NCBI GenBank assembly: GCA_903927955.1
Contig: CAIYOW010000054.1
Span: 1 to 47,302 of the forward strand
Reading direction: 5' to 3'
Origin: an uncultured Methylococcaceae bacterium
GTDB taxonomy: Bacteria; Pseudomonadota; Gammaproteobacteria; Methylococcales; Methylomonadaceae
DNA length: 47,302 bases
Shown one piece after another: positions 7,842-47,108 of the stretch. Under the pieces are notes generated by a model. It saw only the letters and a list, made by a program, of their open reading frames with translations, had not been told where the DNA came from and did no database searches. Numbering within the stretch: position 1 is the first letter of the stretch; each line of letters begins with the position of its first letter. Both the position numbers and the translations under genes were made by a program.

Positions 7842-7845
7842 ACTA

Positions 7846-12955: not shown

Positions 12956-13022
12956 TTTGGCTCTCCTGTTTTTGTGGGCCATGCCTATTGTTTTGATTGC
13001 CTTATTATTGATTTACTTGGGT

Positions 13023-14028
13023 TTATCTTAAAACGCCGGGTGGGCAGGAATAATTGTCCAATACTTGGATATAGTTCGCCCGCTCGTAGGCGCTGGGGTC
13101 AATGGCGTGTTGTTGGCTAACGCTACCTTTCAGTTGGCTGACGGATTGGTAGCCATGTTCGTCCAGCCAGTGTTGCATAGCCGCCAACAAGCCAGTGATA
13201 TGCTCCGGCCCATGTGCCAGTAGTACGCTGCACAGTTGCACGGCATCAGCCCCGGCCAGCAGTGCTTTCAATATGTCCGGCATGGTATGGAAACCGCCGG
13301 TGACCGCCAACGACACGTTGACCCGACCGTGCATTAAGGCTGTCCAACGGATACGCAATAAGGCTTCGGCAGGTGTGGACAGTTCCAATTTTGGCACTAC
13401 TTGCAGGGTGTCCAGATCAATATCGGGTTGGTAAAAGCGGTTGAACAGCACTAGGCCATCTGCTCCGGCTTGCTCAAGCCGTTTGGCAAAATGTACGGGC
13501 GAGCTGAATTGTGCCGACAGTTTTACGGCAATCGGTAGGCGGATATGGCGTTTGAGTTCCTGCAAAATATCAATATAGCGGTTTTCCACGCTGTTGCTGT
13601 CTTCGTTGCTGTCCGTCGGCATGTAGTAGCTATTAAGCTCCAAGGCATCCGCACCAGCTTCTTGCAAGGCCCGGCCGTATTCCAGCCAGCCCCCCAGAGA
13701 AGTGCCGTTCAGGCTGGCGATAACGGGGATTTTCAGGCGGATTTTCAGTTTTTGCAGATGTTCCAAGTATTGTTCTTGGTAAGTTTGCAAGTTAGCAGGC
13801 AGCGGATGGAAAGAATCCGCCTCGCCGTGACCGATGGCTTGTTGGAAAAAAAACCGCGCATGATGTTGAGTTTCAGCAGTGATTTTTTCTTCGAACAGCG
13901 AATACATGACCAATGCGGATGCTCCGGCATCTTCCAGCCGTAAGGCACTGGCGAGGTCTTTGCTGAGCGGTGAGGCGGAAGGTACTAGCGGATTAGCCAG
14001 TGCTAAGCCGAGGTAGTGGGTGCTTAAA

Positions 14029-14036
<8 letters not shown>
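13023..14036 (-). CDS. Dihydroorotate dehydrogenase-like flavoprotein linked to nifJ
   Basis: 337 residues from ATG 14036. The ATG lies inside the last codons of nifJ (8-nt overlap), and a longer upstream frame is only nifJ shadow. It has an FMN-type TIM barrel of the DHOD class: LALANPLVPSASPLS at the N terminus, PVIASLNGTS, ADALELNSYYMPT, LPIAVKLSAQ, ADGLVLFNRFY, VTGGFHT and GADAVQLCSVLL. A DHOD-like gene fused or coupled to pyruvate:ferredoxin oxidoreductase is a recurring arrangement in bacteria. It is not the pyrimidine-pathway PyrD. It may pass electrons or act on a related substrate; its reaction is not established. Confidence 0.85.
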
Positions 14037-17664
<3,628 letters not shown>

Positions 17665-24189: not shown

Positions 24190-25248
24190 CTAGTAATCCG
24201 CTAGTCGTTCATGCGCCAAATAAGCCACGGCAACCGCTGGAGCGCAATCGGCAGCATTCAGTGCTGTGTTGGTCAACGGGGCGGGCAGCAGGTCGGCAAA
24301 ATCACGGTAGGGATAGCGCAAATGCCGGGCCAGTTCTTTTACCAAAAACCGCCCTACCCCCGCGCCAATCAATGGGCTACGGTTAGGCAAAGGGAGGCGG
24401 GATAGCTGTAATTCACAAGCTTGCTCTAAAGTTTGCAATTGTTGCAGGCGCAAATGTTGGGCAACCGCTTGCCAGCGTGGCAAGTCGGTGGGGTCAAAAT
24501 CGCTACCAAGCATTCTTGCCAACCGTCTGGCACTGGCTAGCAGAGTTTTTTCACCCTTATCGGCAGGTGCAGTTTGATCGTGCGCTTCGTCCAGTTCGCC
24601 GGTCAACCGATACACGTCTGCTGTGGTGGCAAAATATTCTGCCATCAGTGGCACGTCTTGACCGTTATCAGTCACGCTTTGGGCAATCGCCATTACCGGT
24701 GTTCTGATAATGCCGGTATAAACCAACTCGCGGGATATTAAGCGACCATAATCACTGTAAGCTTCTGCCAGCACTTGCCCGTCTTTAAGCAATAAAATGT
24801 CGGCGGTGGTGCTGCCGATGTCCACCAACAGGCCATTGCGGCACTGTTGCGCGGCAACTTGGGCACTGGCTAACCAGTTAGCTGAGGCAATGGCGGGATA
24901 ATGCTGGGCGGTTATTTGCCCGATGGACAATAGACCCGCCGTACCGGCAAATGCAGTAAGCTCCGTGTTGGGCAGTAACTTTTTCATGGTATCGAGAATT
25001 TGCCTAACGCCATCATCGCGGCAGCCAAACAAATCGACCAGCTCGCCCGTCATGGTAATGGCGTGGCAATGGCGGGCAGATTCAAGATTTTGCATTATGG
25101 TCTGCACCGCCCTTTCCAACTGATCCAGACCTTGCCAAAGCGGGCAAGGCTGTTGGTAGGTGGCAAGCAGCTTGCCGTCGGGGTTTAGCACAGCGGCTTT
25201 TAAATGGGCGCCGCCAATGTCCCAGCCTACGTTATGGGGTGTTGTCAT
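24190..25248 (-). CDS. mfnF: H4MPT-linked C1 pathway protein, MfnF homologue (hydantoinase-like ASKHA fold)
   Basis: 352 residues. The N-terminal phosphate-1 motif is VGWDIGGAHLKAAVLN (D10). The second phosphate motif is LLVDIGSTTADILLL (about 141). GAGVGRFLVKELAR lies near the C terminus. This matches the family annotated as probable H4MPT-linked C1 transfer pathway protein. Its archaeal member MfnF joins the furan and tyramine-glutamate parts of methanofuran. In methylotrophs the family is found only with tetrahydromethanopterin/methylofuran genes. It lies 18 nt downstream of an MfnD-like ATP-grasp gene, consistent with methylofuran synthesis. Confidence 0.8.
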   Translation of the reverse strand: MTTPHNVGWDIGGAHLKAAVLNPDGKLLATYQQPCPLWQGLDQLERAVQTIMQNLESARHCHAITMTGELVDLFGCRDDGVRQILDTMKKLLPNTELTAFAGTAGLLSIGQITAQHYPAIASANWLASAQVAAQQCRNGLLVDIGSTTADILLLKDGQVLAEAYSDYGRLISRELVYTGIIRTPVMAIAQSVTDNGQDVPLMAEYFATTADVYRLTGELDEAHDQTAPADKGEKTLLASARRLARMLGSDFDPTDLPRWQAVAQHLRLQQLQTLEQACELQLSRLPLPNRSPLIGAGVGRFLVKELARHLRYPYRDFADLLPAPLTNTALNAADCAPAVAVAYLAHERLADY

Positions 25249-25266
25249 GTTTTATATATCAATCAG

Positions 25267-26238
25267 TTATAGGTTGATTGTGACTGTTTTCTGACGGGTC
25301 GCCTGAATGCTGTGGGTAGCGTCTAAGCCATTAATGACCTGTTCCGCCACGTTGATACCGGTGGCATTATAAATGCCAACGTAGGAAGTCGTCAGCCTGG
25401 GGTTGATTTCCAACACTAATAAGCCGTCTTGGCTGGCAATCAGGTCAACGCCGGCATAGCCGGACAGTTCTGGCATAGCATGGGCTATTTTGTCCAACAA
25501 GGCTTGGTGGCTTGTGGCGTTTTGGCAATAATTAACGTCGATACGGGTCAAATGGTAATACTGGTCGATAAGCTGAAAATATTGCCGATTAACGCATAGC
25601 AGATAGCCCCTGCCGTGTGCAAACAAAGCCGACAAGCTGATTTTGTCGCCGGACAAATGCGGCTGGATAATATACTGATCGTTAGGTTTGTCCAATACTG
25701 GCCAATCTTGCCGTTGTTTAATCAGGTAACTGTCGCGGCAACCGGCTCCGTCTATAGCCTTTACCATCCATTCGCCACTGCCATTATAATGGCAATGGTC
25801 GAGCCGTTGGGTGGCTACGGTTGGCACGGCAAAGTCTGTTAAGCGTTGGTAAGTCTGCCATTTATCGGCGGTGAGTGCCACTACCGCCGCTGAGGGGGTC
25901 AGCAAGCGTTTACCCAGCTGCTCCACGTCGCGGCATAGGGTTTCCAAAATACCATCAAATTCCGGCGCAATCGGCCAAACGGCAGCGCATTGGCTGACCT
26001 CTTGCAAAAACACGGCTTGGTAGTCTTGTTGGGGGCTGACCGTTACGGTAGCGAAAGGGTGTTTTATGCGTCCGGTAAAACGTTCATCCAACATCACAAT
26101 GGGTTGGATGTTGGCTAGGCGGGCCAGGTCATCCAACAGGGCTTGCAGCATCAGCTGGCCTTCCCGTGCCAACGCATCAGGCAGGGCTTCGTTATTAAAA
26201 CCGCCACCGGTGATGTATTCAAACACTAGGATCTTCAT
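25267..26238 (-). CDS. mfnD: ATP-grasp ligase, MfnD-like (tyramine/tyrosine-glutamate ligase)
   Basis: 323 residues. The N terminus MKILVFEYITGGG is shared by the methylotroph ATP-grasp proteins assigned to methanofuran/methylofuran synthesis. ATP-grasp landmarks are MVKAIDGAGCRDSYLI (about 157), QYIIQPHLSGDKISLSALF and the metal-binding EINPRLTTSYVGI (about 276). The archaeal MfnD ligates tyramine to glutamate; methylotrophs use a tyrosine-based methylofuran with a polyglutamate chain, so the exact amine substrate here is inferred. It is cotranscribed with the mfnF-like gene. Confidence 0.75.
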   Translation of the reverse strand: MKILVFEYITGGGFNNEALPDALAREGQLMLQALLDDLARLANIQPIVMLDERFTGRIKHPFATVTVSPQQDYQAVFLQEVSQCAAVWPIAPEFDGILETLCRDVEQLGKRLLTPSAAVVALTADKWQTYQRLTDFAVPTVATQRLDHCHYNGSGEWMVKAIDGAGCRDSYLIKQRQDWPVLDKPNDQYIIQPHLSGDKISLSALFAHGRGYLLCVNRQYFQLIDQYYHLTRIDVNYCQNATSHQALLDKIAHAMPELSGYAGVDLIASQDGLLVLEINPRLTTSYVGIYNATGINVAEQVINGLDATHSIQATRQKTVTINL

Positions 26239-26414: not shown

Positions 26415-26477
26415 GGGTTACTCTAACACGCTTGTTGGAAGTCCTTTTGCTCAACTACTTACATCATAGAGTAACCC
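26415..26477. repeat. 11-bp perfect inverted repeat around the Anbu 3' end
   Basis: GGGTTACTCTA (26415-26425) and TAGAGTAACCC (26467-26477) are exact reverse complements 41 nt apart. The right arm encodes the last residues of Anbu. It could form a long-looped hairpin at the mRNA end or be the scar of a short insertion. Confidence 0.5.
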
Positions 26478-27219
26478 GCATAGCACGGACAGATTGGCTA
26501 TCCAAGATGGGCAGGTTGGCTATGGCTTCGCGCAATTTGCCTTCCCAGCTGCGACGCAATTGCAGCATGTAATCGTCATCGCCATCAAAGCAGTAGTATT
26601 CTGCCAAGCTAAAGCTGTCTTTGCGGTACACCAGCATTTCCACTGGCGGCCCTACGCTGGCGTTACTGCGGATGGTGGAGTCCATTGACACCAGGCAGCA
26701 GCGGGCGGCTTCGTCGATGGAGGTGTTCAATTTGAGGAAACGGTCGAGGATGGGTTTACCGTATTTGCTTTCGCCAATTTGTAGGAATGGGGTATTGGCG
26801 GAGCTGGTGATGCTGTTGCCTTCGGCATAGATCATATAGGCGCTGTGTTCTTCATCGCCAATTTGCCCGGCCAGGATAAACGTTGCGGAGGGATTAAAGG
26901 CGGATTGGCCTTGGGCGTGTAGATGTTGCTTTTGCTTTTCTACGCTGATGCCGCCCAGATAATCGGCCGCTTCGGACAGGCATTCAACTGTGTTCAGGTT
27001 GATTTTGGCATTTTTAAGCTTATCGCGATGCAATTGTTCCAGCACCGATTGGGTTGTGGCCAGATTGCCCGCACACATTAAGATGATGGTCCGGTCGTCT
27101 GTGGTGGCAAACGGGTGCATCTTGCTGTGGGTGCTGACGTTATCAATCCCTGCATTGGTTCTGGAATCAGATACCAAGATAAGGCCTTCGTTGATAGAAG
27201 CTGCAATACAATAAGTCAT
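26464..27219 (-). CDS. Anbu/BPH, bacterial proteasome homologue (NTN hydrolase)
   Basis: 251 residues. The start MTYCIAASINEGLILVSDSR is the Anbu signature. After removal of Met, Thr becomes the N-terminal nucleophile; the proteasome-type Asp (D18) and Lys (K33 in HSKMHP) are in place. The body has IILMCAGNLATTQSVLEQL, FILAGQIGD, IYAEGNSI and QIGESKYGKPILDR. Unlike 20S subunits it has no propeptide. Anbu proteins assemble into open ring or spiral particles; a physiological protease substrate is not established. It is the last gene of a locus with transglutaminases, an ATP-grasp/alpha-E fusion and DUF2126, its classic neighbours. Confidence 0.93.
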   Translation of the reverse strand: MTYCIAASINEGLILVSDSRTNAGIDNVSTHSKMHPFATTDDRTIILMCAGNLATTQSVLEQLHRDKLKNAKINLNTVECLSEAADYLGGISVEKQKQHLHAQGQSAFNPSATFILAGQIGDEEHSAYMIYAEGNSITSSANTPFLQIGESKYGKPILDRFLKLNTSIDEAARCCLVSMDSTIRSNASVGPPVEMLVYRKDSFSLAEYYCFDGDDDYMLQLRRSWEGKLREAIANLPILDSQSVRAMRVTL

Positions 27220-27350
27220 CGGTTAATTAAATATTCACAAAAACGTTCGCTATTTTAGCCTAGCCAGACTTGCTAATCCACAAATACCCTGAAAATATCC
27301 ATAAAATTGAGCCAATACAATGTGTCTAGTGGCTTACTGACATTGCCCTG

Positions 27351-28142
27351 TCAAGTATTTTTCAGTGGCTCCACATTGACGGTCATGTCATTTAAAATGC
27401 AGCCATAGCCAAATTGGTGGAACACGGACACATCTGCCGCATCGCGCCCGAACGCCACAATAACCCGCCCGCCATACAGGTTGGCCTGGGTGGGGTCGAA
27501 GGTATACCAGTGTCCGCCAACGTAAGCTTCGAACCAAGCATGTAAGTCCATGGGCTGCAAATTTTGCAGATAGCCTACGGTAATCCGTGCGGGTATGCTG
27601 ATGCTACGGCATAAGGCAATCCCCAGGTGGGCAAGGTCGCGGCATACGCCATAGCCGCGTTGGTGAATTTCCGTTGCCGATAGCGGAAAATCACTGGAAC
27701 CGGGCACATATTGCACGGTTTGCCTGATCCATTCGACAATTTTACTGACTTGGTCATAACCTGGCAGGGCATCGGCGATAATGTCCCTGGCTAGCTCGCC
27801 AAACCGGTCTGATTCACAATAGCGGCTGGGCAATAAGAACCGCAAAACATCAGAGGGCAAATATTGGATTTCAATAAAGCCCGCACCGGGCGCAGCTTCG
27901 GCGTAACCATCGGCGATCACTTCCGCCGAGCTATGCACCAACAGATAGCCTTTAGGGGCGACCAGCCGCTGGCAGGAGTTGCCGTAGCTGTCGGTGCTTT
28001 CCAGTATCGGCAATGTGGGCTTGATGACGAAGGTCTCGCGGACAATCCATTGCCGTATGCCCCGGTAAGGGCGCAACATGAAAATTAACGCGCTTTCGTC
28101 TTCAATATAAAAACGTAGGCTAGAACTGACCCTGAATTTCAT
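27351..28142 (-). CDS. Transglutaminase-like cysteine protease/ligase (Anbu locus, third copy)
   Basis: 263 residues. The C-terminal transglutaminase core has the catalytic triad C167 in GYGVCRDLAH, H201 in MDLHAWFEAY and D216 in YTFDPTQ. The N-terminal half is a beta-rich region as in other bacterial transglutaminase-like proteins. No signal peptide is visible, so it is probably cytosolic. It lies 131 nt before Anbu and 20 nt after the ParA-like gene. The families around Anbu are predicted to cut or form isopeptide bonds in peptide tags. Confidence 0.88.
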   Translation of the reverse strand: MKFRVSSSLRFYIEDESALIFMLRPYRGIRQWIVRETFVIKPTLPILESTDSYGNSCQRLVAPKGYLLVHSSAEVIADGYAEAAPGAGFIEIQYLPSDVLRFLLPSRYCESDRFGELARDIIADALPGYDQVSKIVEWIRQTVQYVPGSSDFPLSATEIHQRGYGVCRDLAHLGIALCRSISIPARITVGYLQNLQPMDLHAWFEAYVGGHWYTFDPTQANLYGGRVIVAFGRDAADVSVFHQFGYGCILNDMTVNVEPLKNT

Positions 28143-28162
28143 AGGAGCAACAAAGGCTTGCC

Positions 28163-28858
28163 TTAAACGCCTATGGCGGCGATTTCATCGTAGGCACGTC
28201 TGAGCCACAATTTTACCCGTTGCCTTTCCAGCAAGCCCAAGCTGTTCGGGTTGCCAGCATCTTTGTTTTTGGCCGCCCAAAAACTGGCGCTGCTGCCGTC
28301 TATTTTAGTCATCACTGGTGCATGTAAGCGTCTAAGTTTCATGACTTTGGCGTTTAAATCCAAGGCCCGCTCCAGTACACCGGAATATTCCAGCAGGTTA
28401 AAATCGTCATCTCGCACTTGGTTAAGCACTAGCACATAGTGCAAGCGTGAACCAAATTGATCCAGTAGCCTGTCCAGCAAGTCCACACAATCTTTGCCGG
28501 AATCCATGACATTCCAATAGCACAAGTCAATACCCAACTCTTGGGTCAAATCCAGCACGCCTGAGTCGTCTATCCATTGCGCCAGCGGGTGGTGGGTTTG
28601 TGATGCCAAATCCACCAAAATACGGCTATCGGGGTTTTCGGCAGCCGTTTCAATGATGCTGTCCAGGCTTTGGTAATTGTCCACTACGGTGGGCGAGGCA
28701 AAACCTGAGTAGAAACGTAGCAGATTGCCGTGCGAGCGGTCGGTGTCAAAACCAATGAATGGGATTTCGTGGTCGATCATGTATTGGGCCAACAGCCGTG
28801 CCATGACAGATTTGCCAACACCGCCTTTTTCACCACCGATAAGATGTACTGTTGTCAT
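28163..28858 (-). CDS. ParA/MinD-like P-loop ATPase inside the Anbu locus
   Basis: 231 residues from ATG 28858, chosen because AGAGGA lies 8 nt upstream; the open frame beyond has no support. The deviant Walker A motif GGEKGGVGKSVMARLL (K11, K16) defines the ParA/MinD/SIMIBI class. FIGFDTDRSHGN corresponds to the switch region and RILVDLASQTHHPLAQWID to Walker B. A basic C-terminal stretch (RQRVKLWLRRAYDEI) could bind DNA or membrane. It is not next to a ParB and has no replicon context. Such ATPases usually position cargo. Its presence in an Anbu operon suggests localisation or ATP-driven assembly of the complex, which is inference. Confidence 0.85.
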   Translation of the reverse strand: MTTVHLIGGEKGGVGKSVMARLLAQYMIDHEIPFIGFDTDRSHGNLLRFYSGFASPTVVDNYQSLDSIIETAAENPDSRILVDLASQTHHPLAQWIDDSGVLDLTQELGIDLCYWNVMDSGKDCVDLLDRLLDQFGSRLHYVLVLNQVRDDDFNLLEYSGVLERALDLNAKVMKLRRLHAPVMTKIDGSSASFWAAKNKDAGNPNSLGLLERQRVKLWLRRAYDEIAAIGV

Positions 28859-28943
28859 TATTTTTCCTCTATTTTTTAATTTATTAGCTAAAAGATGGAC
28901 ACCCGCCGGAAGGCTGGGTTTACCGGTTTTTCCCAAAATGGGC

Positions 28944-29837
28944 TTATTGTTCAATTCGTAGCACATCGACAGACACCGACAAAGTATGTTGCCCGCCACC
29001 AAAAGCGATGCCTTTTAAGGGTGTGACATCGGCAAAATCGCGCCCCCAAGCCAAGGTGATATGCTGGTCTTCGGGCAATTTGTTGTTGGTGGGGTCAAAG
29101 TCCAGCCAGCCACCGCCCGGGATATAAACTGCAAACCACGCATGGGAGGCATCGGCACCGACCAAGCGGGGCTTGCCAGCAGCGGGGATGGTTTCGACAT
29201 AGCCGCTGACATAGCGGGTGGCAATGCCAAAACTACGCAAGCAAGCAATCGCCAAATGGGCAAAGTCTTGGCACACGCCACGCCGGTGCGCCAAGACTTC
29301 CGATAGGGGCGTGGCAATGGTGGTGAAACTGGGGTCGTAGGTAAAGTCGTTATAGATGCGCCCCATTAAATCTTGCACCACTTCCACTAAAGGCCTTGCA
29401 GGGGTAAACGACGGCAAGGCATAGTCCGCCAGTTCGGGGCATGCAGTCACCATGGGCGAATCCAACAGATATTGCTTGGCTTGTAGAATGTCATCGGTCT
29501 GGTCGGTGTGCGCGGCAGCCTGCAACCATTCACGCGCCATTTCCCAAGGCAGTGCGTTGTTTAACAGATTATCCGGTGAGGGGGGCTGCACGGTGACCTC
29601 GCTGATGGCGGAAACAACCAGACGCTTATGGGCTTGCGGAATGGCGAAATAGGCGACGCGGTTACCAAAAAAATCAAGCCGACCGGTCATTTCCACCGGT
29701 GCCGGAGTGATTTCAAAACGGCTATAATGGCACTGTTGCCGCCAACATTCACGGGGTTGCAAGCGAGCTTCGTTTTGGCAGAGGCCCACTGGCTGGCTAT
29801 AGTTGTAGGTGGTGCTATGAGTGATACGGTATTTCAT
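28944..29837 (-). CDS. Transglutaminase-like protein with N-terminal beta domain (Anbu locus, second copy)
   Basis: 297 residues. An N-terminal bacterial transglutaminase-like domain (MKYRITHSTTYNYSQPVGLC, ending near the FFGNRVAYF strand) precedes the transglutaminase core. The core has C179 in HRRGVCQDFAHL, H222 in DASHAWFAVY and D238 in WLDFDPTNN. This is the common transglutaminase partner of the ATP-grasp/alpha-E proteins. Its ATG overlaps the upstream stop by 4 nt (ATGA), so the two are translated together. The closing segment DFADVTPLKGIAFGGGQHTL is typical of this subfamily. Confidence 0.92.
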   Translation of the reverse strand: MKYRITHSTTYNYSQPVGLCQNEARLQPRECWRQQCHYSRFEITPAPVEMTGRLDFFGNRVAYFAIPQAHKRLVVSAISEVTVQPPSPDNLLNNALPWEMAREWLQAAAHTDQTDDILQAKQYLLDSPMVTACPELADYALPSFTPARPLVEVVQDLMGRIYNDFTYDPSFTTIATPLSEVLAHRRGVCQDFAHLAIACLRSFGIATRYVSGYVETIPAAGKPRLVGADASHAWFAVYIPGGGWLDFDPTNNKLPEDQHITLAWGRDFADVTPLKGIAFGGGQHTLSVSVDVLRIEQ

Positions 29838-32422
29838 AACTCATCTTCGCCAGGAGGGTTGGCCATAAGCAATTGTGAGGTTTGCGAGTGGCTAAAATAA
29901 GACTCGGCAATCACATCGGCAAGCCGCCATAGGTCTTTGGTGATGCCTGCCAGCAACGCTTCCAAGGCAACGTAAACGCCGCCATCTTCGGGGCATTGCA
30001 ATAAATCGGCAATTTTGCATAACCGTACATCGGTATAAACCTTTAAGATTAAGCGTTCTTCCTCGCTTAACTGGCAGCCCCGACATTCTTTGGGCAAGGC
30101 TTTTATGTGCACCGAAAGCTGGCTTAATTGATAGGCTATGGAGCGCGGGTGGGTTTCATCCAGCAGCAATAACGCCAATACCATAGGCAACTGGATGCTG
30201 GAACGGTAGCGGCGCAAGTAAATGGTCAGGCTATCGGTTGAAATCAACACCGACTCCAGCACTTGGCTCAGTAAGGCCTCTTCATGGCGCAACGCCAGTG
30301 TTGCGCGTAATAATGAGGCCAACACCACTGCCCGCTCCAGCCTGCGCCCGCTATCCAACATCAGCCAACCGGCCTCGCGGGTGAGGCTTTCGGTTATCAA
30401 ACCGCTGAATGCCACAATGCCGGTGACCAGTTCATCCAAATGGGCTTGTAGCTGGTCGAAGGCAATATCCGCATTGACCACCTTTTGTTCCCAGCGCCGG
30501 TGGATGTTGTCAACGCTGCGCCAGGTGTCTTGCGACCATAGATCACGGATGCTGAATGCTGAGTTAAAAAAGCCGTTGATATTGGCGGAAAGCGACCCTA
30601 ATCGGTGGCCATCTTTCACTAAAGAAAGCAATTCAGCCTGCGGCGCTTTTAATAGTTGCTCGCTACCGCCGACAAACCCAGGATAGATACCGGTGATATG
30701 GGTTAAGGTTTTTAGCAACACTTGTAAGCATTTTACATCAATCTCATCTTGAAATTCGTACACTTCCCAAATTTTCCGCACAATCGTCTTGAGTACCCGG
30801 CTTTCCGCCTCGGTGCGCTCAAGATAGCGCCCGACCCAAAACAAGTTATCGGCGGCACGGCTGGTCAGTGGTTCGGCAACCACGTCCACGATGATATTAC
30901 GGTTGGCTTGGGCATTGCCCAAGGCGGCGCGATCCAGTTCGGGTGATAAGCCCAACACCCAAGTATCCTTGCTGATGCCACCCGCTTGGTTGGAAACGAT
31001 AAAATCGTCTTTTTCTTTGGCAATGCGGGTCAAACCACCGGGCATGACCAGATAATCCTCGCCATCAGCCACTACAAAATTACGCAATACTGAATTACGG
31101 TGTTCGATATGCTTGTCGATAAAGGCCGGGGCGGTGGAAAAACTGACCCGTTCCTGACCGACATACAAATGTGGTTTGGCCTTGATCTGGTCGCGCAAGG
31201 CAGTTTTTTCGGCATTACTTAGGGTGTTGCCAAAAATGACACCATGCCCTCTGCGGTTGACTTGTTTGATGACCAGATGCTCGATATTTTGCAGCACGAA
31301 ATCACGCTCCCTTGGCTGTCCGCACCACCAAGTTGCCACTGAATGTAAAATGAGTTCCTGATTTAAAAAATATTGTGCCAAACGCGGCAAAAACGCCAGC
31401 AAGCCGGGGTTTTCCAATAGACTGCTGCCTAACGGATTGGCTATTGCCACATTGCCACGACGCACCGCTTCCAACAACCCCGCCACGCCCAGTCGGGAGT
31501 TGCTTTTAAGCTCCAACGGGTCGCAATAAAAATCATCCACCCTGCGTAAAATGACATCAACCGGTTTGAGACCTTCCAAGGATTTGAGCAGTACCCGACC
31601 GTCACGCACCGTGAGATCATCGCCTTGCACTAAGGTGAAGCCTAAATAAGAGGCCAGATAAGCATGTTCAAAATAAGTTTCGTTAAACGGCCCCGGAGTC
31701 AGCACCACAATGCGGGGATTATCTTTGTTTTGCGGGGCAATGTTAGCCAGTGCCTTGCTGAAGGTTTTGAAAAAGCCGGACAAACGCCGCACTTGTGTTT
31801 CACGAAAAATTTCCGGCAATACCCGAGTGATTGCAGCGCGGTTTTCTAAGGCATAGCCAAAACCGGAAGGCGCTTGGGTGCGGTCGTCCAAAATCCACAT
31901 CTGCCCGTCGGGGCCACGCGCCAAGTTGGCGGAATAAATGGTCAAATGGCGTTTCTGGTCAGGCAATGTGCCAACACAAGGATGTAAAAAACCCTCGTGG
32001 CCAAACACCATCTCAACCGGCAACAGTCCCTTTTTGAGCAAGGTCTGTGGCCCATAAATATCTTTTAAGATCAAATCGAGCAACACGGCGCGTTGTTTAA
32101 GCCCCGCTTCTATGGTGCACCACTCCTCCCTGCCAATCAGCAAGGGCACGGGATCCAGCCGCCAAGTGCGGGTCAGTGTTTCGCTATCACCATAGACGTT
32201 GTAAGTGACGCCGTTTTCACGCAGCAAGCGTTGTGCCTCGCGGCGGCGGCGTTCCAATTCGTCACTGCCCATAGCTTCCAAGGAAGCAATGAAACGTTGC
32301 CAGTACGGCAGCACTTTATGCTGGGTGGCGTACATTTCATCGTAAGTGCCCAGTTGGGTGGCATAGAATTGGGTGCCAATATCACTGGAGTGGGTGTTGC
32401 GGTTTGCTGCTAATCGATCCAT
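29834..32422 (-). CDS. Circularly permuted ATP-grasp and alpha-E domain fusion protein
   Basis: 862 residues. The N-terminal two thirds is a circularly permuted ATP-grasp (DUF404/DUF407-type): LLDLILKDIYGPQTLLKKG, IYSANLARGPDGQMWILDDR, TPGPFNETYFEHAYLAS and VIKQVNRRGHG. From about residue 510 the alpha-helical alpha-E domain (DUF403) begins: TSRAADNLFWVGRYLERTEA. It has an RRYRSSIQLP region and a terminal DVIAESYFSHS. In many genomes these are two genes; here they are one chain. The ATP-grasp is predicted to form peptide or amide bonds. The start ATG has no strong ribosome-binding site. The downstream transglutaminase is translationally coupled. Confidence 0.92.
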   Translation of the reverse strand: MDRLAANRNTHSSDIGTQFYATQLGTYDEMYATQHKVLPYWQRFIASLEAMGSDELERRRREAQRLLRENGVTYNVYGDSETLTRTWRLDPVPLLIGREEWCTIEAGLKQRAVLLDLILKDIYGPQTLLKKGLLPVEMVFGHEGFLHPCVGTLPDQKRHLTIYSANLARGPDGQMWILDDRTQAPSGFGYALENRAAITRVLPEIFRETQVRRLSGFFKTFSKALANIAPQNKDNPRIVVLTPGPFNETYFEHAYLASYLGFTLVQGDDLTVRDGRVLLKSLEGLKPVDVILRRVDDFYCDPLELKSNSRLGVAGLLEAVRRGNVAIANPLGSSLLENPGLLAFLPRLAQYFLNQELILHSVATWWCGQPRERDFVLQNIEHLVIKQVNRRGHGVIFGNTLSNAEKTALRDQIKAKPHLYVGQERVSFSTAPAFIDKHIEHRNSVLRNFVVADGEDYLVMPGGLTRIAKEKDDFIVSNQAGGISKDTWVLGLSPELDRAALGNAQANRNIIVDVVAEPLTSRAADNLFWVGRYLERTEAESRVLKTIVRKIWEVYEFQDEIDVKCLQVLLKTLTHITGIYPGFVGGSEQLLKAPQAELLSLVKDGHRLGSLSANINGFFNSAFSIRDLWSQDTWRSVDNIHRRWEQKVVNADIAFDQLQAHLDELVTGIVAFSGLITESLTREAGWLMLDSGRRLERAVVLASLLRATLALRHEEALLSQVLESVLISTDSLTIYLRRYRSSIQLPMVLALLLLDETHPRSIAYQLSQLSVHIKALPKECRGCQLSEEERLILKVYTDVRLCKIADLLQCPEDGGVYVALEALLAGITKDLWRLADVIAESYFSHSQTSQLLMANPPGEDEL

Positions 32423-32664
32423 ACGCTGCCATAAGATTTTGAATTTTTAAGGCGCATTATTTGTTTTTATAGCCATTTGGAGGAATTTATACGGCAAGGG
32501 TAACGCGCCCACCACGGTGGCTTGTGCCATTAACAACCGGTCGCCCTAGTGCGGGGCGGGTGTTGTAAAACTGGCACAAAACACGCGGCTGCTGCCGGAC
32601 TAACCATAACATAATCCGGCAGACATGGGGAGCGGTGAAAGACTAGGCTAGACAAGCAATGCCG

Positions 32665-35600
32665 CTAGCGGTTCTTTTTGCGTAAATCCAGCGTAAAAGG
32701 GAATTCCAAATCAAATTCTTCTGGTGGTGGTGCCATCGGCCTAGGTGCATAGTCGCTGACGGTAAAACGGTCGGCAAAGGGTGTTTCGGAGGCCGCATCA
32801 TTGGAACCCGACAGAGGCGGCCTAATGACCACGCCCGGAGTATGCCCATAATCCCAAAAACGGGTGATCCGGCGGGCTTCGGCTTCAAAGCTATTGACCG
32901 GAAAGGTATCGTAGCTACGCCCGCCCGGGTGGGCGACGTGGTAAGTGCAGCCACCAATTGCATGGCCATTCCAGCTGTCAATCACATCAAAAACCAGCGG
33001 TACATGCGGGCTGATGGTGGGGTGCAAGGCTGACGGCGGCTGCCAAGCGCGGTAACGTACCCCCGCCGTGTATTCGCCTTTGCGTCCGGTATTGCGCAGC
33101 GGCAAGCGCCGTCCGTTACAGGCCAGCACATAGCGGCCTTCAGTAAAGCCCGTGACTTTTATTTGCACCCGTTCCACAGAGGAATCAACATAGCGTGCTG
33201 TACCCATGCTGCCCATTTCTTCACCCAACACATGCCAAGGTTCAATGGCAAAACGCAGTTCCAGTTCCATATCGTCGATCATGGTGGTGCCATAACGCGG
33301 AAAACGGAATTCAAAAAAGGGCGCCAGCCATTCCAGCTCAAACGGATAGCCTGCCCGCTGCAAGTCTTTGACGATATGCTTCATGTCTTCATGGACATAA
33401 TGCGGCAACATGAAGCGGTCATGTAGTTCGGTGCCCCAGCGCACCAATTCGTGTTGGTAGGGTTTACGCCAGAACCAGGCAATTAGCGAACGCAGCAACA
33501 ACATTTGCACCAGCGACATGCGCCCGTGGGGCGGCATTTCAAACGCACGCAGCTCCAAAATACCTAAGCGCCCTGTGGAACTGTCCGGTGAATACAGCTT
33601 GTCAATACAAAATTCTGAGCGGTGCGTGTTGCCGGTGATGTCGGTCAGCAAATGCCTTAACAAACGATCCACTAGCCACGGGGTCAGCACCTCGCCTTCA
33701 GGCATTTGCTGGAAAGCTATTTCCAGTTCATACAGTTTTTCGTCGCGGCCTTCATCAACACGCGGCGCTTGGCTGGTGGGTCCGATGAACATACCGGAAA
33801 ATAAGTAAGACAAGCCGGGATGATGCTGCCAATAAGTCACTAAGCTACGCAGCAGGTCAGGGCGGCGCAATAACGGGCTATCATTGGGGGTTGCCGCACC
33901 CATAGTGATATGGTTGCCGCCACCGGTGCCGGTATGGCGACCATCGAGCATGAATTTTTCCGTACCCAAGCGGACTTGAAAAGCCTGTTCGTACAATATC
34001 TCGGTTTTTTCAACCAATTCCGCCCAGCTTTTTGATGGGTGGATATTCACCTCGATTACGCCCGGGTCTGGGGTGACCATTAGGCGTTCCACACGATAAT
34101 CGCGCGGTGGCTCATAGCCTTCAATGACTACTGGTAATGACAGCTTTTCAGCGGTTGCTTCAATGGCGGCAAGCAAGTCCAGATAATGTTCCAGCAACGA
34201 CAAAGGCGGCATAAAAATGTACAAACGCCCATCTCGTGGTTGGATACAAATGGCGGTATGCGGCACTTCAACATGCACCGCATCGGCATCACCTGGTTCT
34301 TGCTCAACAATTTCTGGATGCTCGTTGGCCTTCTCTTCAAAATGACTGTATCGGCGGCACACCTCGCCGTAATAATCGCCCAATTCAGGCAGGCTGGTGA
34401 ACAAACTTTGCGGCTCTTGGTTATCGCGCTTGTCGGGAGCCACCCAAGGCAGGCTGTTTAGCGGCATCCTCATGCCCATAGGTGAATTGCCCGGGATCAG
34501 GTACATTTGACCCCGTCTAAAGTTCCACGGGCCGCCTTGCCAAGTCTGTCCGTACCAATTCCATTTGAGCGGTAGGGCAAAGCCTACTGGAATGCCCAAA
34601 TCGGCGTCCAGCACTTTGGTGATATTTTTGCGCTCTATGGAATCTTTTAAATCATATTTCAGCGGATTGACATTAAGCGGCAAGTTGCCTTCTTGCCAGA
34701 GATAATAAAAGTTGTCTTCAAAGGCGGCAGTGATGTAGCGCGACGAAACGCCCAGATGTTGGCTAAGATGGCGGACAAAACGCTCGGCATCAAGGGCGGT
34801 ATGTTCGTAATCTTTGTTGATGTCTGCCAGCAGCGCATCATTACGCCACATGGCAACCCCATCTTTGCGCCAAAAAATGCCATATTGCCAACGCGGGATA
34901 GGTTCGCCCGGATACCATTTGCCTTGCCCATAATGGAGCAATGCACCTTTGGCAAACACATCACGCAAGCGTTTGGTCAGCTCTTGGGCGCGTTCGCGTT
35001 TATGCACACCATCCGCCAAGGTGTTCCACTCAGCGCCTTCCATATCATCAACCGATACAAAAGTCGGCTCGCCACCCATGGTCAGGCGCACATCGTCAGC
35101 CAGCAATTGGCGGTCGACTTTTTCGCCCAAGGCATTGATAAAATGCCATTGCTCATCGGTATAGGGTTTAGTGACGCGGGGGTCTTCGTGCAACCGGCTG
35201 ACGGTGTTGCTAAATTCAAACTCCACTTCACATTTGTCAGTGCCGCCGGTCACTGGGGCGGCACTGGCGGGGTTAGGCGTACAAGCCAGAGGGATGTGGC
35301 CTTCACCTGCCAATAGGCCAGAGGTGGGGTCCAGGCCAATCCAGCCAGCACCGGGTATATAAACCTCAGTCCATGCATGTAAATCAGTAAAATCTTGTTC
35401 CGGGCCGGAAGGGCCGTCAAGTGATTTGATGTCGGCCGTCAACTGCACCAAATAGCCGGAAACAAAGCGCGCTGCCAAACCGATGTGCCGTAAAATTTGC
35501 ACCAACAGCCAAGCCGAATCACGGCAAGAACCGCTTTTAATGGTCAGTGTTTCTTCACAGCTTTGGATGCCCACTTCCATGCGAATGTTATAGCTGATGT

Positions 35601-36063
35601 CGCTATAAACCTTGCGGTTAATGTCCACAAGAAAATCGTTGATGTTGCGCTGGGTCAGGTCAAATTCTTTCACCCATTGGGTCAGTAACGGCCCTTTTTC
35701 GGTTACTTCCAAATACGGCTGCAATTCATTAAGCAGTTGTTCTTCGTATTTGAACGGGAATTTTTCTGCGTACTCTTCCACAAAAAAATCAAAGGGGTTG
35801 ATCACCGTCATATCGGCGATCACTTCCACTTCAACGCTGAGCGTGCGGGTTTTGTTGGGGAAAACCACCCGAGCCAGAATATTGCCGAACGGGTCTTGCT
35901 GCCAATTGATAAAATGGTCTTTCGGCTCAATGTTCAGGCTGTAACCGATGATCGGTGTCCGGCTATGCACGGCAGGGCGCAACCGGAACACATGCGGCGA
36001 CAACGCCACTGGGCGGTCGAAGTTATATCGGGTTTTGTGGTTGATGGCCACTCGAATAGTCAT
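32665..36063 (-). CDS. Transglutaminase-DUF2126 protein with COOH-NH2 ligase-like domain
   Basis: 1132 residues. The N-terminal 300 residues form a transglutaminase module with C180 in KSGSCRDSAWLL, H229 in DLHAWTEVYI and D245 in IGLDPTSGLL. The rest is DUF2126, which comparative analyses relate to glutamine-synthetase/GCS-type carboxylate-amine ligases. Visible segments are RLTMGGEPTFVSVDD, EVNIHPSKSWAELVE, HTGTGGGNHITMGAATP and RLGILELRAFEMPPHGRMS. It is the first gene of the locus on the minus strand, 242 nt before the ATP-grasp fusion. One chain thus joins a peptide-cleaving or transferring domain with a ligase domain, typical of the predicted Anbu-linked peptide-tagging loci. Confidence 0.92.
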   Translation of the reverse strand: MTIRVAINHKTRYNFDRPVALSPHVFRLRPAVHSRTPIIGYSLNIEPKDHFINWQQDPFGNILARVVFPNKTRTLSVEVEVIADMTVINPFDFFVEEYAEKFPFKYEEQLLNELQPYLEVTEKGPLLTQWVKEFDLTQRNINDFLVDINRKVYSDISYNIRMEVGIQSCEETLTIKSGSCRDSAWLLVQILRHIGLAARFVSGYLVQLTADIKSLDGPSGPEQDFTDLHAWTEVYIPGAGWIGLDPTSGLLAGEGHIPLACTPNPASAAPVTGGTDKCEVEFEFSNTVSRLHEDPRVTKPYTDEQWHFINALGEKVDRQLLADDVRLTMGGEPTFVSVDDMEGAEWNTLADGVHKRERAQELTKRLRDVFAKGALLHYGQGKWYPGEPIPRWQYGIFWRKDGVAMWRNDALLADINKDYEHTALDAERFVRHLSQHLGVSSRYITAAFEDNFYYLWQEGNLPLNVNPLKYDLKDSIERKNITKVLDADLGIPVGFALPLKWNWYGQTWQGGPWNFRRGQMYLIPGNSPMGMRMPLNSLPWVAPDKRDNQEPQSLFTSLPELGDYYGEVCRRYSHFEEKANEHPEIVEQEPGDADAVHVEVPHTAICIQPRDGRLYIFMPPLSLLEHYLDLLAAIEATAEKLSLPVVIEGYEPPRDYRVERLMVTPDPGVIEVNIHPSKSWAELVEKTEILYEQAFQVRLGTEKFMLDGRHTGTGGGNHITMGAATPNDSPLLRRPDLLRSLVTYWQHHPGLSYLFSGMFIGPTSQAPRVDEGRDEKLYELEIAFQQMPEGEVLTPWLVDRLLRHLLTDITGNTHRSEFCIDKLYSPDSSTGRLGILELRAFEMPPHGRMSLVQMLLLRSLIAWFWRKPYQHELVRWGTELHDRFMLPHYVHEDMKHIVKDLQRAGYPFELEWLAPFFEFRFPRYGTTMIDDMELELRFAIEPWHVLGEEMGSMGTARYVDSSVERVQIKVTGFTEGRYVLACNGRRLPLRNTGRKGEYTAGVRYRAWQPPSALHPTISPHVPLVFDVIDSWNGHAIGGCTYHVAHPGGRSYDTFPVNSFEAEARRITRFWDYGHTPGVVIRPPLSGSNDAASETPFADRFTVSDYAPRPMAPPPEEFDLEFPFTLDLRKKNR

Positions 36064-36220: not shown

Positions 36221-37480
36221 TCAGCTTGGTTTAATAGCCTGCTGCCCATCGGCCTGCATGACCATTAACGCCTCTTCTATCCCTGCGGCATGGGTCAGTT
36301 CCGCCACATTGTTGGCATGGAAATAACCGTGGAAACCGCTAAACCGTTGCACATATTCAATAATCAGCGAAGAATGCTCGGAAGCGCTGGAAAAAATCTG
36401 CTTTAGGCCTTCAAACTTGGAGCCAATAATGTCCAGCAAAAAACTTTTGCCCTCTTCGCGTATCGCTTCGACCACATAGTCGATATTCTCAACCCCCTGC
36501 TGTTTGCCATCTTTAACGGCCAGGGCCAAATGATGCAGCCTAGGGCCATAGTTACGCACATAATTCTCGGTCGGCGATGGAAAAATCTTTAAATGATTGA
36601 CAAAATAGGGCGTGTTATTGGCTGTGAACACTTTGGCTGGGCTGTGCAGCTCGTCTTGGCAATGCATACTTTTGGTGACATTAGTTGATGAATTTTGGTC
36701 AATAATGTCAAACGAACCCCAATAATAATAACTGGACAGGGACAGCCATTCCAAAATGGCCACTTCGCGGTTTTGACTGTAAATGCGCGTTGCCAAATGG
36801 TCTACCGGCAAAATCAATTCAGCAATGCCCAGTTGCTGTTGGCGTTCCTTGGCACGTTGGCAAACCTCATAGGCCGCTGGGCTGACATCTTTGAAACCCA
36901 AATCGTAATGCCGTTCCTGCTGGCTGCCACGCTCGACATAAGCCACTATGTTATGCGTGTAGGGCGACGGTTTGCTGATGGCAAGGTTGCCCGGCAGTTC
37001 CAGCCTAGCCACTTCTTCCGAAGAAAAGAAACTGATCCCTCGCGCCTGTTGCAATTTGACCACTGCTGCGAGATCGGTCACGCGCAAAACTTCGCCAATG
37101 TAGCGGCTATTCGGCTTGTTATTGCCGATAGGATACACCTCGTTGAGGCTACGGAAAATACCGCGAATGCCGTCATGCTTGACTTCGCGGACAATCAAAT
37201 CGGGTGATTGGCCATCAATCCTGAGTACATGCGTCCAATGTGATGCGCTCTCTATAGTGTGCAGATACCAGTAGGGCGACATCAGACACAGCTCGCCAAT
37301 GTATTCAATGGCATTACCCGGTTCTACGGTCAGCATCATGGCATCTATTTCCCTGACCATGTCGGTCAAGCCAATCTCATCACGCTCTTCCAGTAACTTT
37401 TCCAAGTACTCATTAAAAAACAGTGAGTTTTTTACGCCACAATGGGCAGGATAAGCAAGTGATTTGGAAACGGTGGTCAT
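36221..37480 (-). CDS. Divergent VOC-fold dioxygenase, 4-hydroxyphenylpyruvate dioxygenase-like
   Basis: 419 residues from ATG 37480. An open frame back to GTG 37546 would add a hydrophobic stretch but has no ribosome-binding site. The C-terminal half follows the HPPD plan. Candidate iron ligands are His in PVDHLATRIY (about 227), His in GPRLHHLALAVKDG (about 315) and Glu in LIIEYVQRFSGF (about 375), a 2-His-1-Glu set. EYVQRFSGFHGYFHANNV corresponds to the C-terminal E-I-Q-R...G-F-G...N-F segment of HPPD. The N-terminal half is not recognisable as a standard HPPD first repeat. Substrate unknown. It lies 157 nt upstream of the DUF2126 gene on the same strand. Confidence 0.6.
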   Translation of the reverse strand: MTTVSKSLAYPAHCGVKNSLFFNEYLEKLLEERDEIGLTDMVREIDAMMLTVEPGNAIEYIGELCLMSPYWYLHTIESASHWTHVLRIDGQSPDLIVREVKHDGIRGIFRSLNEVYPIGNNKPNSRYIGEVLRVTDLAAVVKLQQARGISFFSSEEVARLELPGNLAISKPSPYTHNIVAYVERGSQQERHYDLGFKDVSPAAYEVCQRAKERQQQLGIAELILPVDHLATRIYSQNREVAILEWLSLSSYYYWGSFDIIDQNSSTNVTKSMHCQDELHSPAKVFTANNTPYFVNHLKIFPSPTENYVRNYGPRLHHLALAVKDGKQQGVENIDYVVEAIREEGKSFLLDIIGSKFEGLKQIFSSASEHSSLIIEYVQRFSGFHGYFHANNVAELTHAAGIEEALMVMQADGQQAIKPS

Positions 37481-37987
37481 GGTGATTGCCTGTAAAAATA
37501 TACCAATAGTGACAAGCAAAAATAGTACCAACACAATAACAGGCACAATAAAAAATTAAGCACTGGTTATAGAACGCCTTATACCCGAAGACTGGCAGTT
37601 AGCTAAAAAAACGGTCATTAAAGGGGCGGCGGTCGGCCTAACATGCACAGTTTTAGTGCATTAATGGGCGGAATTGCCGCTGTATTTAATGCGGCAATGG
37701 CATCATCACAAAATGCACTGGGGATAGCTCAACTCCAGAGCAAAAAAAGGGACTTAAATGACGATAAGTTTTTTGTGTCTGTTCAGCCCCCTAAAAAAAC
37801 GTTATTATTCTTACCGCATACCGATACGCCCCACATAAGCCACAGACCCTAAAAGCGTGGGCGAAGCTTTAGCTAGCGGACTAAAAAACCGTCGCAGCAA
37901 CTTAAGGATATTTTGTGTGCCGTCAGGGTGGGGAGGTATCCAACAATATGATTGTCTTTCAATTTTTCGGCCGCAGGTTTCTTCATC
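37481..37987. other. Divergent intergenic region upstream of the VOC and membrane-protein genes
   Basis: About 500 bp with no supportable gene; the short frame at 37643-37852 shows no motif. It should carry promoters for both flanking genes. The one structured element seen is the hairpin at 37673-37698, with a smaller one just before it (TGCAC/GTGCA at 37644-37660). Confidence 0.5.
37673..37698. repeat. 8-bp perfect inverted repeat in the divergent region
   Basis: ATTGCCGC (37673-37680) and GCGGCAAT (37691-37698) are exact reverse complements with a 10-nt spacer. This is the size expected of a dimeric-regulator site or a small RNA hairpin. There is no T-run, so it is not a terminator. Confidence 0.45.
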
Positions 37988-39649: not shown

Positions 39650-40900
39650 ATGCATCAAGACTTTGATCATAACCCGGCAACTTCCCGACCGGACAAGCCT
39701 TGGTTTCTCAAATGGCGCTGGTGGCTTATCGTATTGTCCGTGATCGCCGCTATGGGTTGGGGCATTTGGCAGTTCAGTAATAAGCCAGAAAATAATGCAG
39801 CCAATGCCGCCGCCCCCAAAGACAGCCACGAGCAACGCCCTGTAGCGGTGGCGGTTGCTACTGCCAGCCAAGGCGATTTGCCCGTTTTTCTGAATGGCTT
39901 GGGTACGGTGACACCGCTGCGCACGGTCACTGTGCGTTCGCGGGTGGATGGTGAGTTGGTGCGGGTGGCGTTTAAAGAAAGCCAACTGGTCCAGCAAGGC
40001 GATGTGCTGGTGGAAATTGACCCACGGGCTTTTCAGGTGCAATTGCATCAGGCGGAAGGGCAGTTATTGCACGATGAAGCTTTGTTAAAAAATGCTGAGA
40101 TTGATTTAACCCGTTACCAAACCTTGCTTAAGCAAGATTCCATTGCCGCCCAACAAACCGTGACGCAAGAGGCATTGGTCAAGCAGTACCGTGGCACGGT
40201 GGAGGTTGACAAGGCGCAAGTGGAAAACGCCAAATTGCAGCTTAGCTATACCAAAATCACTGCGCCCATCACGGGACGGCTGGGGCTACGCTTGGTTGAC
40301 CAAGGCAACTTAGTCCACGCCACTGACAGTAATGGCTTGGTGGTGATCACCCAACTGCAACCCATCACGGTGGTGTTTACCTTACCGGAAGATGTAGTGC
40401 CGCCGGTCTTGCGGCGTTGGCATTCCGGCGCCAGCTTGCCGATTGAGGCTTATGACCGCACGGGTAGCCAGAAGCTGGCCGAAGGCAAGCTGTTGGCGAT
40501 TGATAATGTAATTGACCCAACCACTGGCACGTTTAAACTAAAAGCCCAATTTAATAATGATGACGGGCTATTGTTTGCCAATCAGTTCGTCAACATCAAA
40601 ATGCACTTGGACAGCCTGCATAATGCCACGTTAGTAGCGACAGCAGCCATTCAGCAAGGGGCTATGGGTAGTTTTGTCTATGTGGTTAAAGAGGACCAAA
40701 GCGTTACGGTGCAGCCTGTCAAGGTTGGCCCCAGCAATGCTGACACCACGGCAGTTTTGGATGGGTTGAAAGCGGGCCAAAAAGTGGTGGTCGAGGGCAT
40801 CGACAAGCTGCGCGAAGGCATCAAAGTTAAGGTGTTAGGGCAAAATAATGACCCGCCGCCTGCCGAGGCAAGCCCTCGCCCGCATAACAAACAGCCCTGA
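39650..40900 (+). CDS. mdtA: RND efflux periplasmic adaptor (MdtA type)
   Basis: 416 residues. A single N-terminal membrane anchor (about residues 24-42, [17 protein letters not shown]) is followed by the adaptor architecture. The lipoyl-like barrel has [20 protein letters not shown] and [16 protein letters not shown] helical hairpin of about 70 residues leads to [20 protein letters not shown]. The beta-barrel and membrane-proximal domains carry [17 protein letters not shown] and FVNIKM. It bridges the MdtBC pump to an outer-membrane TolC-like channel not encoded here. It starts the operon and lies 2 nt before mdtB. The ribosome-binding site is weak. Confidence 0.93.
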
Positions 40901-40902
40901 TT

Positions 40903-43900: not shown

Positions 43901-44028
43901 TTACGATGGTTGGCGGTTTGATTTTCAGCCAATTGCTGACCCTCTACACCACACCCGTCATTTACCTGGCTTTGGACAGGCTAGCGCAGCGTTGCAATGG
44001 TAATGACGTGGGCAAACACCGCGCATGA
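40903..44028 (+). CDS. mdtB: RND efflux pump subunit MdtB
   Basis: 1041 residues, 12 transmembrane helices with two large periplasmic loops after TM1 and TM7. The opening [19 protein letters not shown] and [20 protein letters not shown] are HAE1-RND hallmarks. The proton-relay pair of Asp is in [19 protein letters not shown] (about 411). [19 protein letters not shown] marks TM10. In E. coli MdtB and MdtC form a mixed trimer exporting bile salts and novobiocin-like drugs. The next pump gene overlaps by 4 nt (ATGA), consistent with the mixed complex. Confidence 0.94.
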
Positions 44029-47000: not shown

Positions 47001-47108
47001 TTGCTGGTCAGCCAGTTGCTGACCTTATATACCACGCCTGTGGTTTATTTGTACCTAGACCGCTTAAGCCTGTATAGCCGCAATTTGTTCAATAAGGAGA
47101 AGCATTGA
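44025..47108 (+). CDS. mdtC: RND efflux pump subunit MdtC
   Basis: 1027 residues, same 12-helix RND layout as its neighbour. Landmarks are [40 protein letters not shown], the Asp pair in [19 protein letters not shown] (about 400), [13 protein letters not shown] and [19 protein letters not shown]. It overlaps mdtB by ATGA. The signature QVDSPTI and the operon order after mdtB fit MdtC. A two-component system (as baeSR in E. coli) and an outer-membrane channel are not visible inside this window. Confidence 0.94.

Follow-up and report, generated by a model that had tools for sequence, protein, structure and literature searches.

The closest described counterpart of the locus analysed here is the Anbu operon, in which four genes encode Anbu, a circularly permuted (CP) ATP-grasp protein, an alpha-E protein and a transglutaminase, as set out in passages of two earlier studies (PMC6376114, PMC5666114). 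According to passages of the first of these, the Anbu proteins tested had neither peptidase nor amidase activity, the proteins of the operon showed no specific interaction, and the catalytic set of Anbu consists of Thr1, Asp17 and Lys32/33 (PMC6376114). We analysed a stretch of 47,302 nucleotides (nt) from an uncultured Methylococcaceae bacterium of the order Methylococcales (contig CAIYOW010000054.1, assembly GCA_903927955.1), referred to below as the window. It carries a run of genes that encode, from 5' to 3', a transglutaminase fused to the putative amidoligase domain DUF2126 (Tgl-DUF2126), a CP-ATP-grasp/alpha-E protein, the transglutaminase Tgl2, a ParA-like ATPase, a further transglutaminase (Tgl3) and Anbu. 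Anbu, CP ATP-grasp, alpha-E and transglutaminase are thus all found together in the window, with the catalytic residues of Anbu kept. The window differs from the described operon in that one of its proteins combines ATP-grasp with alpha-E and another combines a transglutaminase with DUF2126, and in that it has two more transglutaminase genes along with the ATPase. The words ParA and MinD are absent from the main text of PMC6376114 and PMC5666114, and we recognised no report of an association between the ATPase and the module among the matches listed from the open-licence literature.

In Methylococcales the ATPase is integrated between two transglutaminase genes; elsewhere it stands mostly apart, yet is kept with DUF2126. 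On the basis of gene identity, motifs, purifying selection, gene order and a co-occurrence with DUF2126 that goes beyond that with Anbu, we consider it probable (roughly 0.6) that a dedicated ParA/MinD-type (A/D) ATPase partners the DUF2126 amidoligase/transglutaminase module, whatever its mode of action. The ATPase may be a missing piece of Anbu/ATP-grasp/transglutaminase systems, and the data point to the DUF2126 ligase half, rather than to Anbu, as the place to look.

The ATPase is conserved and under purifying selection

We placed the start of the ATPase gene at the ATG at 28858, which is preceded by AGAGGA and backed by an M1 that is invariant across 26 aligned orthologs. The protein contains a deviant Walker A motif (KGGxGKS/T) with the signature lysine, K11, and 56 orthologs show K11, K16, D38, D40 and D83 each kept at a rate of 98% or more; D38, D40 and D83 are the acidic residues of switch I and Walker B. 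In the C-terminal part, D187, S192-A196, R212, R214 and W218 are invariant in 26 sequences. No Pfam or NCBIfam model passed its cut-off for this protein: CbiA/ParA in Pfam reached E 1.7e-4 (22.0 bits against a cut-off of 25.4), and the NCBIfam TraL model NF010461 gave E 4.4e-12 with 45.9 bits, far below its cut-off of 360. A ParA-like PHROG family matched with E 2.8e-4, and the closest sequence match of solved structure was to an ATPase of the ArsA type (E values 0.006 and 0.011). No AAA+ domain was found above cut-off, the best candidate being AAA_16 (E 0.12, 13.3 bits against 32.6), and with no AAA family reaching its cut-off the "ATP-remodelled" complex envisaged by the first-pass annotation finds no support in the AAA+ sense.

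The ATPase is under purifying selection, with a low ratio of nonsynonymous to synonymous substitution rates (dN/dS). In the pair formed with genome G158, dN was 0.009 and dS 0.438, and 21 pairs, of which many have a high dS, gave a median dN/dS of 0.086. Like ParA, MinD, McdA, ParC and VirC1, the protein has the deviant Walker A lysine K11 as well as D40 and D83, and its gene lies beside a putative cargo. It differs from them in its proposed cargo, since an amidoligase/transglutaminase module is not among the cargoes named in passages of PMC10241942.

Gene order around the ATPase in Methylococcales

Of the 301 genomes of the order, 101 carried an ATPase ortholog at a threshold of our own choosing (E <1e-30); for the Burkholderiales family and the verrucomicrobial class described below, the thresholds, likewise our choice, were <1e-40 and <1e-70. 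Any match at all was seen in 120 genomes, of which 15 had distant paralogs alone and 4 had short fragments that were scored as ATPase-negative. The neighbourhoods examined comprised 104 loci including the window, 7 of them with fragments and 97 with full-length genes; a neighbour was taken as directly before or after when it lay on the same strand within 1 kb. Because some contigs end close by, the counts for the 97 loci are lower bounds. Tgl2 lay directly before the ATPase in 70 of these loci and Tgl3 directly after it in 76, and both flanked it in 59. The ATPase lay directly before DUF2126 in 6/97 and directly before Anbu in 2/97. Within 5 kb, a Tgl-DUF2126, ATP-grasp/alpha-E or Tgl2 gene was found in 79 loci, Anbu in 68, some gene of the system in 94 and none in 3. 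The copy at locus L151, also from Methylococcales, is 98% identical to that of the window.

The first-pass annotation had assigned the ATPase to the operon from its tight spacing (20 nt separate it from Tgl3), and the flanking by Tgl2 and Tgl3 in a conserved order over 97 loci bears this out; the contrary possibility, that the ATPase stands beside Anbu in this genome alone, is contradicted by the 68 loci with Anbu close by. Since 59 of the 97 loci keep the order Tgl2-ATPase-Tgl3 and the gene is under purifying selection, the arrangement is more than a chance one.

Other arrangements separate the ATPase from Anbu. In five genomes of one genus (g2) the ATPase is the last gene of the ligase operon and Anbu lies elsewhere, and in family f4 it stands, in six genomes, before a tandem of two Tgl-DUF2126 genes; in the two of these that were inspected, G033 and G099, Anbu is on another contig than the ATPase. 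Tgl3 is the commonest downstream neighbour of the ATPase in the order, yet both also occur apart, and at g2, g15 and f4 loci the ATPase has no adjoining Tgl3. As a separate observation, loci L034 and L044 carry insertions of 5-8 kb between the ATPase and Tgl3, with genes that by their sequence look like those for pqq cofactor biosynthesis.

The ATPase tracks DUF2126 rather than Anbu

We compared the distribution of the three genes with Fisher tests, whose p values ignore shared ancestry. DUF2126 occurred in 177 and Anbu in 200 of the 301 genomes of the order. DUF2126 was present in 100 of the 101 ATPase genomes versus 77 of the 200 others (p=4.8e-29), and Anbu in all 101 versus 99 of 200. When Anbu-positive genomes were considered, the link with DUF2126 persisted (100/101 with the ATPase versus 73/99 without, p=2.9e-8).

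Two further samples were centred on genomes picked because they carry the ATPase, namely G334 (Burkholderiales; its family, n=120) and G306 (Verrucomicrobia; its class, n=169). In the G334 family, DUF2126 was found in 35/37 genomes with the ATPase versus 45/83 without (p=5.7e-6, or 6.5e-6 without the centre genome), and Anbu in 33/37 versus 65/83 (p=0.2). Among Anbu-positive members of this family, DUF2126 was again more frequent with the ATPase (32/33 versus 41/65, p=1.5e-4), while among DUF2126-positive members Anbu was unrelated to the ATPase (32/35 versus 41/45, p=1). In the G306 class, full-length DUF2126, a category that we defined ourselves and that covers 32 of the 57 DUF2126-positive genomes, was present in 6/7 genomes with the ATPase versus 26/162 (p=1.9e-4; 8.4e-4 without the centre), and any DUF2126 in 6/7 versus 51/162 (p=0.006; 0.016 without the centre). 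The one ATPase genome of this class that lacks DUF2126, G469, has an ATPase interrupted by a stop. At constant Anbu status the ATPase thus goes with DUF2126, and at constant DUF2126 status it shows hardly any link with Anbu or none.

A wider scan of GTDB genomes yielded at least 485 confirmed relatives of the ATPase, of which the best 80 were kept, so that the sample is not random. From these we singled out 34 loci that have titles not naming Methylococcales and ATPase copies of 60-69% identity; they come mostly from draft genomes of Verrucomicrobia, Burkholderiales, Nevskiaceae and Thiobacillus, some being less precisely named, and one of them, L189, groups with the family of the window in the tree described below and may belong to the same order. 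DUF2126 was present in 28 and Anbu in 14 of these 34 genomes; the DUF2126 search matched 1 of 14 control genomes. In the 15 ATPase genomes titled as Verrucomicrobia groups, DUF2126 was found in 14 and Anbu in none, with an Anbu profile that was built from sequences of the order of the window and that detected Anbu in 98 of the 120 Burkholderiales genomes. Verrucomicrobial genomes with the ATPase and DUF2126 and no detected Anbu would allow the two halves of the system to be studied apart. The tie between ATPase and Anbu that the first-pass annotation had in mind is therefore not supported, given the absence of detected Anbu from these 15 genomes, the lineages in which the ATPase accompanies DUF2126 or ligase genes at a distance from Anbu, and the lack of association within the DUF2126-positive G334 family.

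Physical linkage outside the order was seen in a few cases. In Thiobacillus (L223), DUF2126 lies directly before the ATPase with 27 bases between the matches, in the Burkholderiales genome G374 DUF2126 is followed by the ATPase at a contig end, and at L198 there is a weak transglutaminase match 9 kb from the ATPase. A conserved neighbour sought within 6 kb at 33 outside loci gave no family present in more than three loci, clusters overlapping the ATPase itself aside. The suspicion that the closest relatives of the ATPase might belong to unrelated operons fails for the nearest ones; the next nearest, mostly from Verrucomicrobia and Burkholderiales, stand at 33 loci without a common neighbour.

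Phylogeny and origin of the ATPase

Pairwise distances were correlated over 51 genomes that have five of the families; DUF2126 was not included because it is complete in 15 of the 51 alone. The ATPase correlated best with CP-ATP-grasp (0.92), followed by Tgl3 (0.88), Tgl2 (0.87) and Anbu (0.60). Anbu was an outlier against every gene (0.60-0.66) and also evolved slowest (mean distance 0.18 versus 0.29). The first-pass annotation had asked whether the phylogeny of the ATPase follows that of Anbu: by these distances it follows the ATP-grasp and transglutaminase genes, and Anbu less.

In a quick tree of the ATPase, which comes with a long-branch warning, 17 of the 19 rows of the window's family formed one group with L189 (support 97); L061 joined this group at 81, and L062 (42% identical) fell outside it. 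Three f4 rows grouped with Thiobacillus (support 89), and two further groups of 15 rows, each with support 97, were verrucomicrobial in the one case and mainly Burkholderiales with one verrucomicrobial row in the other.

Outside the orthologous group, a plasmid collection contained 237 records related to the ATPase, all below 60% identity and 153 of them typed conjugative, and phage records gave one weak match. The 15 plasmid matches listed were all cyanobacterial, with 28.5-33.2% identity over at least 97% of the length, and 12 of them were named mobilisation or MobD-like protein. The ATPase is therefore similar to MobD/TraL proteins over nearly its full length and shares most motif residues with them. 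It differs at D83, where both plasmid relatives compared have N, and in its surroundings, as it lies beside ligase genes in the window and the two plasmid relatives whose neighbourhoods were examined lie near relaxase genes. Mobilisation ATPases are linked to DNA transfer and placement.

Possible modes of action

ATPases of the A/D type are often encoded near their cargo, which they reach via a partner protein, according to passages of PMC10241942. Because of this habit of the family, a role in positioning, clustering or gating suggests itself for the ATPase of the window. Driven by ATP, the ATPase would dimerise on a surface of the cell, either nucleoid or membrane, and the DUF2126, CP-ATP-grasp and transglutaminase proteins, as partner or cargo, would be recruited, clustered or released upon ATP hydrolysis. 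As a result, amide or isopeptide bonds, the predicted chemistry of the module, would be formed at the right place or time, with Anbu downstream and optional. Positioning in particular is a tentative proposal, to which we would give clearly less than an even chance. With the same reserve we suggest that an intracellular amidoligase/transglutaminase complex (DUF2126 and CP-ATP-grasp/alpha-E) could represent an unrecognised class of A/D ATPase cargo, in which an ATPase derived from plasmid mobilisation would localise or gate amide-bond formation in Methylococcales, Burkholderiales and Verrucomicrobia, with or without Anbu.

Several observations speak against a dedicated partnership with the DUF2126 module, beginning with the neglect of shared ancestry by the Fisher tests. 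Within the order, all 101 ATPase genomes have Anbu, and among DUF2126-positive genomes Anbu was slightly more frequent with the ATPase (100/100 versus 73/77, p=0.034); slow evolution of Anbu may also be partly behind its low distance correlation. The ATPase is dispensable: 77 DUF2126-positive genomes of the order have no counted ATPase (3 of them have fragments), and no match turned up in G054, G112 or G215, where DUF2126, Anbu and Tgl3 are all present. Short remnants occur in G106 and G157 (loci L067 and L068), two genomes that retain other genes of the system, and the DUF2126 gene of G157 also shows a stop. In G033 and G099, an extra copy of DUF2126 adjoins Anbu without the ATPase. Outside the order, 6 of the 34 ATPase genomes show no DUF2126, and at 33 of the 34 loci neither a ligase gene nor Anbu was found near the ATPase in stretches that span from <1 kb to 10 kb. 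In the G306 class, weaker relatives of the ATPase showed no more than a mild link with DUF2126 (7/20 versus 19/142, p=0.022). Finally, the analysis brought up neither a ParB-like partner nor one whose N-terminus is basic and disordered.

The same partnership could operate in another mode, in which the ATPase dimer would energise or assemble the DUF2126/ATP-grasp enzymes by loading a substrate or cofactor into them or by switching them on, much as NifH- or ArsA-type relatives do. The genetic evidence fits this equally well, the best structure match is of the ArsA type, and the invariant C-terminal residues might act with a catalytic partner. However, the match to ArsA is weak, spanning ~65 residues, and the plasmid relatives are mostly named as mobilisation proteins, so that we consider this mode rather unlikely. 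It is improbable that the ATPase is a mobilisation-type bystander that dropped into the operon and was carried along without a function there: the low dN/dS, the kept motifs, an order preserved over many genera and the co-occurrence with DUF2126 in three groups all argue otherwise, even if plasmid relatives, the lack of a common neighbour at the outside loci and the occasional losses would be expected of such a gene. Least probable of all, and ranked low on genome distribution, is a direct service to Anbu as an unfoldase stand-in that would give a new ATP-dependent protease, since what favours it, namely the constant presence and frequent proximity of Anbu in the order and a reported lack of AAA+ ATPase association for Anbu (in passages of PMC5666114), is set against the verrucomicrobial, f4, g2 and DUF2126-positive Burkholderiales genomes and the lack of an AAA+ domain above cut-off.

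As for the physiological setting of the DUF2126 module, passages of PMC8050072 report ~2^4-fold more transcript on nitrate versus ammonium for P. putida PP_2685 (proteasome beta subunit) and PP_2688 (CP-ATP-grasp), and passages of PMC3597751, which mention no ATPase, describe a tie in marine metagenomes between domains of urea metabolism and those of the transglutaminase-N, alpha-E and ATP-grasp kinds. Both hint at a possible role under nitrogen limitation.

Genes of the operon and its surroundings

The six open reading frames proposed by the first-pass annotation were recovered as one unit on one strand, with the same limits and families (Table 1).

Table 1. Genes of the operon in the window, with the possible additional gene, from 5' to 3'
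Product	Coordinates	Strand	Length (aa)	Basis or remark
Possible first gene of the unit, vicinal oxygen chelate (VOC)-like	36221..37546	-	~419	157 nt 5' of Tgl-DUF2126
Transglutaminase domain fused to DUF2126 putative amidoligase	32665..36063	-	1132	Pfam Bact_transglu_N + Transglut_core + DUF2126 (1353 bits)
Circularly permuted ATP-grasp fused to alpha-E	29834..32422	-	862	Pfam CP_ATPgrasp_2 4.9e-153, Alpha-E 4.8e-66
Transglutaminase Tgl2	28944..29837	-	297	Pfam Transglut_core
ParA/MinD-type ATPase	28163..28858	-	231	Deviant Walker A GGEKGGVGKS; Pfam CbiA/ParA below cut-off
Third transglutaminase Tgl3	27351..28142	-	263	Pfam Transglut_core 4.9e-22
Anbu, proteasome-like N-terminal nucleophile (NTN) hydrolase	26464..27219	-	251	Pfam Proteasome PF00227 3.6e-5, above cut-off

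The Tgl2 and ATP-grasp genes overlap by 4 nt. The catalytic triads of the three transglutaminases were kept in all aligned sequences, namely Cys180-His229-Asp245 of Tgl-DUF2126 (32/32), Cys189-His232-Asp248 of Tgl2 (84/84) and Cys167-His201-Asp216 of Tgl3 (83/83). The third, shorter transglutaminase noticed at first pass is real; its N-terminal domain resembles Bact_transglu_N_2 (26.6 bits against a Pfam cut-off of 27). In Anbu, T2, D18 and K33, which correspond to Thr1, Asp17 and Lys32 after removal of Met, were invariant in 10/10 aligned sequences. Special regulation in the gap between Tgl2 and the ATPase was considered and rejected: the fold z was -1.1, promoter-like sites numbered 18 versus 14.2 (standard deviation 3.3) in shuffles, and terminator-like sites 17 versus 17.8.

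A look for a contact site of the ATPase on DUF2126 pinpointed none, but brought out a difference in the C-terminal linker that precedes a final YPFTLDLR-like motif (window ~32665-32860). Among 54 sequences, 5 of which could not be measured, this linker has 36-46 residues in lineages with a gene-linked ATPase and in their near kin, and 14-18 in most others. G118, with a linked ATPase, departs from this with 14 residues; the linker is also long in G054, G074 and G144, which have no ATPase, and in G175 and G275, whose ATPase lies elsewhere than next to DUF2126.

A seventh member of the unit may be the gene at 36221-37546, with a start that is more likely an ATG near 37480. Among eight other genomes with at least 1.7 kb upstream, a homolog stood in the same place in two and not in the other six, which makes 3/9 loci, two of them from one contig. 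A homolog also lies at the edge of the stretch in G123, L144 and the Thiobacillus cluster L223 each have one next to DUF2126, and in L068 one is found 5' of the ATPase remnant. Four homologs are 63-76% identical to the protein of the window, and H228, H316, H317 and E375, which may be metal ligands, are invariant in the five sequences. No Pfam family scored above cut-off, and from the weak match to Glyoxalase_4 (E 0.07) our guess would be a VOC dioxygenase-like enzyme.

With regard to other genes near the operon, a citrate-synthase family (Pfam, one member tested) was present in 36 fetched loci (e.g. L094:3393-4700), 34 times between Tgl-DUF2126 and CP-ATP-grasp/alpha-E. L041, L076, L093, L102 and others have a second pair of CP-ATP-grasp and alpha-E (two matches) on the opposite strand near Anbu, where the window carries other genes. 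After Anbu, the window encodes an MfnD-like ATP-grasp (below cut-off) and a protein of the tetrahydromethanopterin (H4MPT)-linked one-carbon (C1) pathway (TIGR03123) at 24190-26238 (-). Elsewhere in the window are a pair of acetate kinase and phosphoketolase genes (6633-10227, +), genes for a phosphoenolpyruvate (PEP)-utilising enzyme resembling pyruvate phosphate dikinase (PPDK), a dihydroorotate dehydrogenase-family protein and a pyruvate:ferredoxin oxidoreductase-like protein (10550-17664, -), and an HlyD-type adaptor gene followed by two genes for transporters of the resistance-nodulation-division (RND; AcrB-type) kind (39650-47108, +).

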